A model generated the notes under the pieces. That model was not told the origin of the DNA. It did not search any database and saw only the letters and a program-made list of their open reading frames with translations. Of a stretch of 64,000 nucleotides of DNA, positions 21,471-63,005 are shown piece by piece. The stretch comes from Sandaracinobacteroides saxicola (GTDB taxonomy: Bacteria; Pseudomonadota; Alphaproteobacteria; Sphingomonadales; Sphingomonadaceae). The stretch is from contig NZ_CP059851.1 of NCBI RefSeq assembly GCF_014117445.1, forward strand, positions 2,356,001 through 2,420,000. The letters run 5' to 3'. Numbering within the stretch: position 1 is the first letter of the stretch; the number at the start of each line of letters is the position of its first letter. A program made the position numbers and the translations under genes.

Positions 21471-21667
21471 GCGCGCAGGCAACGCACCGAATCGCTTGCC
21501 TTGAACGCATCAATATGATAACCATATTGGCATTAATCGAGTCGCTCTCCAACAGTATGAAAGCCGCGCACGACCCGCCCAAAACCCCGAAAACCGCTAA
21601 CTCCTTGATTCAGGCTGTCACTTTTTGCGCAAAACCTTCCATATTTCCTGCTTGCAACAAAAGAGCA
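21471..21667. other. AT-richer spacer without a gene
   Basis: About 200 bases between the repeat pair and the structured element. It contains one small palindrome (CAATATG-ATAAC-CATATTG near 21511-21529). I see no convincing reading frame, promoter pair or site. Confidence 0.5.
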
Positions 21668-21860
21668 GCCCCTGCGCGGCCAAGCCGCGCGAAACGAACA
21701 GCAGTCGGGCTGCAGAGTGCGGAAGGAGAAAGGAACGAAAAAAAGCACGGCAAAGCCGTGCTGTCGGACGTGTCGGTTGGTCACCGGCAAACCGCACGCC
21801 GGCCAAGCTTGCGCGAGTCTGAAAATAGCGGGCTTCGCACCGCTATTTTCAGCCGCGCTG
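21668..21860 (-). ncRNA. structured 3'-end element / candidate small RNA, copy A (downstream of dps)
   Basis: Read on the minus strand, directly after the dps stop codon. First comes a perfect 13-base hairpin (CTGAAAATAGCGG / CCGCTATTTTCAG, 21819-21852). A conserved stretch ending ACCGACACGTCCGACA follows, then a terminator stem (21745-21761) with a run of T, and finally a GCGCGGC/GCCGCGC hairpin (21674-21690). A second copy with the same order lies at 62744-62920. Stem sequences differ between the copies but pairing is kept. It could be a 3'-untranslated structure, a processed small RNA or a mobile palindromic repeat; the sequence does not decide. Confidence 0.55.
21738..21761 (-). terminator. 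Rho-independent terminator for dps
   Basis: On the minus strand: stem GCACGGC, loop TTT, stem GCCGTGC, then seven T. It lies about 100 bases after the dps stop, inside the structured element. Confidence 0.85.
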
Positions 21861-21864
21861 CGCC

Positions 21865-22350
21865 CTACGCCACCATCGCCCGCAGCATCCACGCCGTCTT
21901 CTCATGCACCTGCATCCGCTGCGTCAGCAGGTCCGCCGTCGGCTCGTCATGCGCCGCATCCGCCAGCGGAAACACCGCCCGCGCCGTCCGCACCACCGCC
22001 AGTTGGTCCGCCGCCAGCTCCCGGATCATCGCCTCCGCCGTCGGCACCCCATCGGCCTCCTTCACGCTCGACAGCTTGGCGAACGCCGAATAGCTCCCCG
22101 GCGCAAACTCATCCAGCGCGCGTATCCGCTCCGCGATCAGGTCCACCGCCAGCGCCAGCTCATTATACTGCGTCTCGAACATCAGGTGCAGCGTGTTGAA
22201 CTGCGGCCCGGTCACGTTCCAGTGATAGTTGTGCGTTTTCAGATAGAGCGTGTAGGTATCCGCCAGCAGCGTCGAAAGCCCGGCGGCGATCGCCTTCCGC
22301 TGCTTCTCGTCGATCCCCAGGTCCACGCCCGCCGTCTTCTTCTTCGCCAT
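21865..22350 (-). CDS. dps: Dps-family DNA-starvation / ferritin-like protein
   Basis: I start at the ATG at 22350, where GAGGAG stands six bases upstream; the frame opens further upstream at 22392 without such a site. The 161-residue product has the Dps ferroxidase signature: [22 protein letters not shown] (His and Trp at the dimer-interface iron site, shown here as the stretch near residues 38-59), then [18 protein letters not shown] with acidic ligands. Dps forms 12-mers that oxidise iron with peroxide and may coat DNA in stationary phase. A Lys-rich N-terminal tail (MAKKKTAG) could contact DNA. A terminator follows. Confidence 0.95.
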
Positions 22351-22388
22351 GGTCAACTCCTCGCTTCCATGCCGGTGAAGATAGTCAT

Positions 22389-23603
22389 TCATCGCTTCAC
22401 ATCAAACGCAGAAACCCGATTACCCTCAGCGGTGCAGTGCATCGTCACAGTTTGCGCCCGCCCATCGTACGTCGCCGCCAATTGCGCCTCGATCCGGTAT
22501 CCCCGGCCGCTGCGCACCACACCATCCACCCGGTTCAGCGCCACACGGCTGCCGCCTGTCGCGCCGATCTGCCGCCCGGCCTCCGCCATGCAGGCCCGCG
22601 CCTCCTCCCGTGCGTCCGACGGGAACCGGTCATAATCCGCGCTTACCGACGCCGGCGCACCACCGCCGCCGCCGCTTTTCTTTCCCGATGCCGCCAGCAA
22701 AGCGATCAGCCCCGCCGCGATCGCCACGCCGGCGATCACCCCGCCGGCGTTCGAACCGCCGTCATCCGGCCGCCCACCGGGATAGCCGCCGCCCTGATAG
22801 CGATAGCCGAACCGCGCCCGGCAGCCATTGTCCACCCAGATCGAGCGGTCGTCATAACCCCAGTCGCGCCGCTCCCGGCACTGCCCGGCATAGACCCGCA
22901 CGATGCCCACCCGGTTGCCGGTATTCACGTTGCAGCGCTGGTAGGTGCCGTTCCAGCTCTGGCAATCCGTCTCGGCGGCAAAACTCCCGCCCCCCGGATA
23001 GCCCCCGCCCCAATTGCCGCCGCCTCCCCCCGCATAACCATAGGCAAAGGTCGCCTGGCAGCCATTGTCCACCCAGATCGAGCGCGCGTCATAGCCCCAG
23101 TCGCGCCCCTCGGCGCAGCGCCCGCCGCGCACCTGCATCAACGCCACGCGATTGTCCGTCCGCGCCTCGCACCGCCGCGGCCGGCTGCCATAGCTGTCGC
23201 AGGTCAGCTGCGCCGCATAGCCGCCCTGACCCCCGCCCCAGCCCGGGTTGCCACCGCCGCCCCAACCGCCGCCGGCCCCCACCAGCGCGAACCGCCCGCG
23301 GCAGCCCTCATCCACCCACAGCACCGGGCCGCCGAAATTCGCCCGCGTGCCCCAGCTGCGCCCCTCCACGCAGGCGCTGCTGCTCAGTTGCCGCACCAGT
23401 TCCACCCGCTGCACCCCGCGCGGCAGCGCGCATTCCGCCCGATCGCGCCCGCGGCTGGCGCATTCGATCTCCTGCCACTGCTGCGCCGCCGCCGGCGCCG
23501 CCAGCGCCAAGGAGCCGACCGCCACCGGCAGCGCCACCGACCCCAGCTGCCCCGTCACCATCGCCAGCGCCGTCGCCACGCTCACCACCGGTCGGCCCAT
23601 CAT
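22389..23603 (-). CDS. secreted DUF3011-repeat protein
   Basis: About 404 residues from an ATG next to AGGA (23603; the adjacent ATG at 23600 is equally possible). It has a signal peptide ending LAAPAAAQQ. Three DUF3011-like units follow at about 45-105, 130-185 and 205-265. Each has paired cysteines and the motif [16 protein letters not shown] (first unit [20 protein letters not shown]). Gly-rich linkers ([15 protein letters not shown]) separate them. A membrane helix lies near residue 290 ([19 protein letters not shown]), then a C-terminal domain with one Cys pair. The DUF3011 repeats look lectin-like by their even spacing, but this is only a resemblance; the function is unknown. Confidence 0.8.
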
Positions 23604-62743: not shown

Positions 62744-62920
62744 CCTGCGCGGCAAAGCCGCGCGAACTCGTGCGGCGGGGGAGCAAGAGAGAAAGAAGAA
62801 AAAAGGAAGAAAGAAAAAGGCGGGCAAAGCCCGCTGTCGGACGTGTCGGTCGGCGTCGCCGCCCGCACGCCGGCCAGGCACTGCGGCGAGTCGGCAAATA
62901 GCTTCGCTATTTGCCGCCGC
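62744..62920 (-). ncRNA. structured 3'-end element / candidate small RNA, copy B (downstream of tRNA-Arg)
   Basis: Read on the minus strand after tRNA-Arg. First an 11-base hairpin, CGGCAAATAGC / GCTATTTGCCG (62892-62916), then conserved GCCGGCGTGCGG and ACCGACACGTCCGACA, then a terminator stem (62820-62834) with a T/C-rich run, then GCGCGGC / GCCGCGC (62747-62763). The order is identical to copy A at 21668-21860, with changed but still paired stems. It may be a tRNA-linked transcript, a 3' regulatory RNA or a structured repeat. Confidence 0.55.
62806..62834 (-). terminator. Rho-independent terminator after tRNA-Arg
   Basis: Minus strand: stem GCGGGC, loop TTT, stem GCCCGC, followed by CTTTTTCTTTCTT. 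It ends the tRNA-Arg transcription unit, about 95 bases after the tRNA 3' end. Confidence 0.8.
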
Positions 62921-62928
62921 CTTGGCCT

Positions 62929-63005
62929 TGGCGACCCCGGCAGGACTCGAACCTGCGACATCCCGCTTAGAAGGCGGGTGCTCTATCCAGCTGAGCTACG
63001 GGGCC
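62929..63005 (-). tRNA. tRNA-Arg (anticodon TCT)
   Basis: 77 bases with CCA encoded. Acceptor GGCCCCG pairs with CGGGGTC (one G-T), D-arm AGCTCAGCTGGATAGAGC, anticodon loop CTTCTAA gives TCT, T-loop GTTCGAGTC. Confidence 0.96.

Follow-up and report, generated by a model that had tools for sequence, protein, structure and literature searches.

What follows the dps and tRNA-Arg genes on the minus strand of this Sandaracinobacteroides saxicola locus, and is it a pair of terminators, a spreading repeat or an RNA structure in its own right? An earlier note on the stretch of 64,000 nucleotides analyzed here (the window) had described two copies of a covarying structured element that ends transcription of both genes, and had suggested that it might be a family of 3'-derived small RNAs or a spreading structured repeat. 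Our analysis leads to a family-restricted, structured and apparently uncatalogued element that sits at 3' ends, and both this identity and this placement are well supported. By sequence and fold, the two copies are real and lie on the minus strand, each 3' of a minus-strand gene, with their parts in the order first described (Table 1). The positions originally assigned are broadly right, but each element begins a few bases earlier, right at the gene end, and the GCCGGCGTGCGG and ACCGACACGTCCGACA blocks, which had been taken for separate motifs, are instead the two strands of a single helix, hairpin B. The differences noticed between the stems of the two copies (GCACGGC/GCCGTGC vs. GCGGGC/GCCCGC and others) are real and compensatory. 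A search of the window with a multi-genus covariance model (R2) found no third copy.

Table 1. Features of the two element copies and their neighbors in the 64-kb window.
Feature	Position	Strand	Description	Evidence
Copy 1, whole element	21674..21864	-	first base directly after the dps stop codon	
Copy 1, hairpin A	21808..21864	-	adjoins the dps stop codon; holds the conserved GACTCG of the ACU/G internal loop	sequence, fold
Copy 1, hairpin B	21762..21807	-	bulged helix TGGCCGGCGTG...CACGTCCGACA	R2, 71 bits for 21739-21807; covariation
Copy 1, hairpin C	21745..21761	-	GCACGGC TTT GCCGTGC; zero spacer to B	
Copy 1, U-tract and pyrimidine-rich run	21718..21744	-	TTTTTTTCGTTCCTTTCTCCTTCC...	sequence
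Copy 1, hairpin D	21674..21690	-	derived type, GCGCGGCTTGGCCGCGC	sequence
dps	21865..22392	-	precedes copy 1	ORF; NCBIfam Dps models, best E 5.6e-20, under curated cut-offs
Shared 3' tail repeat	21490..21659	-		35 matches in the genome
Copy 2, whole element	62747..62928	-	first base directly after tRNA-Arg	
Copy 2, hairpin A	62879..62928	-	adjoins the mature 3' end of tRNA-Arg	sequence, fold
Copy 2, hairpin B	62835..62878	-		R2, 65 bits for 62814-62878
Copy 2, hairpin C	62820..62834	-	GCGGGC TTT GCCCGC	
Copy 2, U-tract and pyrimidine-rich run	62781..62819	-		sequence
Copy 2, hairpin D	62747..62763	-	derived type, GCGCGGCTTTGCCGCGC	sequence
tRNA-Arg (tct)	62929..63005	-	precedes copy 2	ARAGORN; Rfam RF00005

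When copy 1 was compared by BLAST with its own genome (3,364,212 bases, one contig), copy 2 was recovered at 1e-17 together with about 30 further places, and the genome-wide covariance search that had been proposed as a check, run with a model of hairpins B and C built from 28 copies (R1), returned 41 copies at E <= 3e-4. Chance similarity is thereby excluded, and the family amounts to about 41 copies in the 3.36-Mb genome. Among 40 relatives searched, six genomes match, including that of S. saxicola itself, and all belong to one GTDB family; the copies number 36 in Polymorphobacter arshaanensis, and 13 and 9 in two relatives referred to here as G020 and G010. Sphingomonadaceae are soil and water bacteria, and 58 of 398 genomes of this family, in 16 of the 96 genera sampled, match. 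Searches with R2 over 298 genomes of the order gave 53 matches, all Sphingomonadaceae, and a class-wide draw of 289 genomes gave two, S. saxicola and one member of the Sphingomonadaceae; in none of the other families sampled among the relatives, the order or the class was the element found. A DNA pattern scan over 84,980 species yielded at least 120 matching stretches. The 80 matches listed belong by title to Polymorphobacter, Sandaracinobacteroides, Sandarakinorhabdus, Thermaurantiacus and Sphingomonas, all Sphingomonadales, except for two genomes whose titles say no more than alphaproteobacteria and a row for Microvirga sp. SRT01, which may be mislabelled. Plasmid and phage records contained no match to the element. 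Of the 4227 families of Rfam 15 searched against the window at gathering thresholds, only the one covering the two tRNAs reached threshold; a search by E-value likewise assigned the element to no family, the best sub-threshold hit at copy 1 being ar9 (22.5 bits vs. 45 required). In the literature covered by a search for a 3'-end repeat or small RNA of Sphingomonadaceae, the element is not described.

Read in the RNA sense, the element consists of three to four hairpins: A, B, C adjoining B, then a pyrimidine tract and often D. In hairpin A, an ACU/G internal loop (GACUC on the 3' strand, GGC on the 5' strand) separates the outer stem from an inner stem whose sequence varies. Hairpin B, a long helix of 17 pairs, has a variable loop and the invariant bulged core GGCCGGC...GUCCGAC; its lower part is near-invariant (Y-R, G-C, an internal loop GC/A, CGG.CCG, a bulged U, C-G, G-C, N-N, G-C) and is followed upward by a loop and a variable stem, and the bulged A of its 3' strand is conserved in 206 of 207 rows of the B+C alignments. 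Hairpin C begins at the next base after B in most S. saxicola copies (28 of the 33 with a perfect C stem) and is offset by one base in 15 of 27 copies of P. arshaanensis. The first 20 nt 3' of C are pyrimidine-rich in every group tested (0.71-0.92).

Hairpin D often repeats the ACU/G loop. Its older form, GCGGACTCGGCGGCTTTGCCGCCGGCCGC, has the identical GACUC/GGC loop with the strands exchanged, and its outer stem covaries at some positions (GC, CG or AT at the third, 0.97 paired vs. 0.61 shuffled). GACTC behind C, which marks this form, is present in 9 S. saxicola copies; the derived D of Table 1 is found in 28 of 42 S. saxicola copies vs. one copy among all others examined. The GACTC of hairpin A, which is not part of the covariance model, precedes B by 12-15 nt in 37 of 40 distinct S. 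saxicola copies (there at 12-14 nt), all 34 distinct P. arshaanensis copies, 8 of 12 in G020 and about half of the others, with a chance expectation of about 0.02 per copy; it was not found before B in the 8 distinct G010 copies. Three copies (L041, L044 and L047) share a near-identical hairpin A of a different stem type, and each starts beside CAT, possibly an opposite-strand start codon.

The compensatory changes first noticed between two copies proved to be genuine and general, because they hold over 28 copies and 19 of 31 pairs. In the alignment of 28 S. saxicola copies, 96.3% of the cells are standard pairs vs. 82.3% after shuffling, the covariation score is 0.346 vs. 0.098, and all controls in which pairing partners were slid by 1-3 columns score at most 0.097; by RNAalifold, the 19 pairs changed on both sides include those of the AAATAGC hairpin. 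Two multi-genus alignments, which had been fitted to the covariance model, have 94.6 and 95.2% of their cells paired and covariation scores of 0.520 and 0.364 (vs. 0.138 and 0.081 shuffled; slid controls at most 0.073). Loss of pairing in further copies was thus looked for and is not the case: about 95% of the cells stay paired while the stems vary, which bears out the proposal of selection on structure. On the sense strand, G.U exceeds A.C among well-formed pairs (32 vs. 17, p = 0.02), so that the strand test weakly favors RNA over DNA structure; among all pairs the difference is not significant (61 vs. 47, p = 0.1).

Placement was read from the regions around the copies, with genes called by a home-made codon-usage caller, by which single placements may be wrong. 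In P. arshaanensis, 32 of 35 copies lie at gene 3' ends: 29 are within 150 nt of a same-strand stop codon, and three further ones follow tRNA-Gly, tRNA-Val and RNase P RNA. In 26 of the 29, the distance from stop to B is 64-73 nt, and therefore hairpin A starts at the stop. In S. saxicola, a same-strand stop precedes 27 of 42 copies at 18-68 nt, and four more stand behind tRNA-Val, tRNA-Arg, tRNA-Gly and tRNA-Ala. The expectation that all copies would lie downstream of genes in the same orientation is thus largely borne out, but not for seven of the 42, which stand next to the 5' end of a divergent gene, pointing away from it. At RNA genes, the 13 copies examined begin at most a few nt from the mature end. 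At serC in two genera (L025:2808-2860 and L239:1431-1483), only tens of bases separate the element from the leader (RF00517), and the element is directed away from it. The divergent placement itself recurs, because this serC-side copy is present in both S. saxicola and P. arshaanensis; such divergent copies should not receive the transcript of the divergent gene.

Many of the genes that precede the element are housekeeping genes. By NCBIfam they include rplL, rpmG, rpsD, groEL, glnA, a proton/sodium pyrophosphatase, ychF, rbfA and ispE in S. saxicola, along with an AhpC-like peroxiredoxin below the NCBIfam cut-off, and rho, sdhB, ndk, rplS, rpsI, infC, prfB, rpoA, glnA and malate synthase in P. 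arshaanensis. The same genes bear it across genera: glnA, groEL, hppA, rho, rpoA-rplQ, an ETF-QO-like oxidoreductase, tRNA-Val and tRNA-Gly. Most genes of any genome lack the element, so that termination as a rule does not depend on it.

Arguments for action at the RNA level are the sense orientation, the position at the ends of transcripts and the bulges that do not vary. We propose, with a probability of about one half, that the element is a 3'-end-forming and end-protecting RNA module of Sphingomonadaceae that was amplified within lineages. The proposal builds on what can be observed in the sequences: the fixed A-B-C(-D) architecture, the covarying stems, the invariant core of B, the recurrent ACU/G loop and the placement. 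The element would act as RNA at the transcript 3' end, where the stacked hairpins B and C would halt 3'-to-5' exonucleases and thereby fix the final end. The pyrimidine tract after C would aid termination, which would be intrinsic with a U-rich tract and, with other tracts, probably weak or dependent on Rho, while the invariant loops would be recognized by RNA polymerase or a specific protein, and copies would be homogenized or multiplied in each genome. Stem-loops in 3' untranslated regions that block 3' exonucleases have precedents in the REP of malEF of Escherichia coli and in trimmed Rho-dependent ends. Like these, the element places strong hairpins just 3' of coding sequences, and an operon-internal copy might by analogy give differential stability to the upstream mRNA; unlike them, it keeps its loops and architecture across genera, beyond what blocking alone requires. 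A more specific version is tentative and on the unlikely side: a dedicated RNA-binding factor might read the ACU/G loops and the B core where tRNA, RNase P and housekeeping transcripts end, uniting termination, 3' trimming and stability in one regulon.

The usual view is that the 3' end of a bacterial transcript requires no more than a hairpin and a U-tract, which share little sequence from case to case. In Sphingomonadaceae, several hairpins whose internal loops are invariant are kept together where stable RNAs and core genes end, whether or not a U-tract follows. Should the element act as RNA, an unknown factor or mechanism for making or guarding alphaproteobacterial 3' ends would be indicated, with dozens of natural test cases per genome, and annotation pipelines would gain a new RNA family.

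The rival that fares best, although we think it rather unlikely, is that the element is a DNA-level repeat of the REP or MITE type, whose single-stranded hairpins are seen by a mobilizing enzyme, whose pairing is kept through that recognition or through templated correction of palindromes, and whose position after genes is simply where insertions are tolerated. The non-significant excess of G.U over all pairs would fit, as would the dispersal of some 41 copies with shared tails. Within-genome identity (0.71 in P. arshaanensis, 0.65 in S. saxicola) equals or exceeds that of same-gene copies across genera (mean 0.57), and most G020 copies share a AAAAGGGCGG stem unseen in the other genomes compared. 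Because copies of one genome resemble each other more, homogenization or multiplication within genomes is likely, and to this extent the suggestion of a spreading structured repeat stands. Simple vertical descent at shared genes is not claimed, same-gene copies being not clearly closer than different-gene copies; shared gene positions could reflect repeated recruitment rather than inheritance. The most recent amplification in S. saxicola is likely, from the sequences, to be that of the derived-D form with the shared 3' tail, a repeat of about 150 nt that stands behind many copies and whose genome matches lie almost only beside the element and are sometimes alone. In some copies, this tail ends in a promoter-like TTGACT-N17-TTATCA beside CCAATATGGTTATCA.

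The DNA-repeat explanation also gains from copies that provide the stop codon of the preceding gene and from convergent pairs. At four genes (rbfA, a merR-like gene, ispE and a lysR-like gene), the stop apparently lies inside the first bases of the element, which suggests a recent arrival there. Convergent pairs lie about 80-200 nt apart, some of them between two converging genes with one copy per gene. What this explanation accounts for poorly is the exact junction with stop codons and tRNA ends in a single orientation, which is unusual for insertions, and the invariant bulges, which templated correction would erase. The absence of copies from the plasmids and phages searched and of any transposase association in an unsystematic look also speak against it. 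Examined as a MITE, the element has its left border nearly always at a gene end, and its tails vary.

REP sequences include CGTC- and GTAG-tagged superfamilies, and those of the CGTC type, which are reported without an associated transposase and in S. wittichii lie mostly at most 20 bp from ORF 3' ends, combine one stem of 8-9 bp and a loop of 4-5 nt with a CCA-like tail and a CGTC tag that is left unpaired (Di Nocera et al., 2013; PMC3733652). The element shares with them the dispersal of palindromes near gene 3' ends but differs in that its CGTC is paired within the 3' strand of the 17-bp helix B, its loop is variable and no CCA tail is present, and in being an array of three to four hairpins of 130-190 nt in fixed orientation; an identity with CGTC-tagged REPs was rejected on these grounds. 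Palindromes of the form CCCGGGTC...GACCCGGG with GTGACGG or CGTCAT ends, which do look like CGTC-type REPs of sphingomonads, occur beside the element in S. saxicola tails and at two loci (L058 and L064). GTAG-tagged REPs have a GTAG foot and an adjacent tyrosine transposase (RAYT) gene, whereas the conserved foot of the element is GACTC/GGC. The small interspersed repeats or MITEs of pneumococci, BOX and RUP, are likewise modular, with tens of copies and tails shared within a genome, but the junction and orientation of the element are fixed at gene ends, at the same genes in several genera and on none of the plasmids or phages searched.

It is less probable still that the copies are ordinary intrinsic terminators made alike by gene conversion, with C as the working part and A and B there by chance. 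S. saxicola offers the textbook case, the 8 nt behind the C stem holding 5.9 T on average and 26 of 33 perfect C stems having at least four consecutive T within 12 nt, and similar C hairpins with GGCTTTGCC loops recur across all genera. By anatomy, the S. saxicola copies are terminators, and there the view that the element ends transcription holds. It does not extend to most other genera: the mean is 4.9 in G020, and 2.2 in P. arshaanensis, 2.5 in G010 and 2.6 in a mixed set, which do not make a U-tract, so that a canonical U-tract after C is limited to S. saxicola and, largely, one other genus. Nor does it extend to rpoA-rplQ. The two genes are typically co-transcribed, and at five loci in several genera an element without a U-tract lies 88-117 nt before rplQ; at two further rpoA loci, no rplQ start was present in the stretch searched. 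Because of these operon-internal copies and the other genera without a U-tract, the element is not defined by intrinsic termination. Moreover, the structural conservation of A and B equals that of C, their distance is fixed and their loops do not vary. The element resembles intrinsic terminators in its GC hairpin followed by T-rich DNA at S. saxicola gene ends and departs from them in the two conserved hairpins before it. According to how much U they contain, the pyrimidine-rich 20 nt would be suited either to the loading of Rho or to intrinsic release. A boxA-like CGCTCTT after C, noticed at three loci, was dropped as a candidate since it occurs in only 5 of 27 P. arshaanensis copies with a perfect C stem.

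We regard it as very unlikely that the element works within the transcript through contact with a Nus factor or RNA polymerase, modulating termination at the hairpin behind it by a logic like that of the put RNA of phage HK022. Such an element could explain the zero spacing of B and C in S. saxicola and the invariance of internal loops and bulges, and the copies at rpoA-rplQ and rho might suggest use where partial termination could matter. However, more than half of the perfect C stems of P. arshaanensis are offset by one base, and put-like two-hairpin elements normally lie on the 5' side of operons. Least probable are small RNAs released from 3' untranslated regions by processing to act in trans on shared targets, as had been suggested, for although many copies lie downstream of genes and have a compact fold with, in S. 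saxicola, a U-rich 3' end as in known cases, the conserved residues of the B+C alignments are in internal loops and bulges of paired helices with no single-stranded seed kept, and copies behind tRNA genes or without U-tracts fit poorly.

Along the S. saxicola chromosome, plus-strand copies prevail in one half and minus-strand copies in the other, a bias that may follow gene orientation alone. GC skew is negative over the whole window (positions 1-64000), at -0.05 to -0.23.
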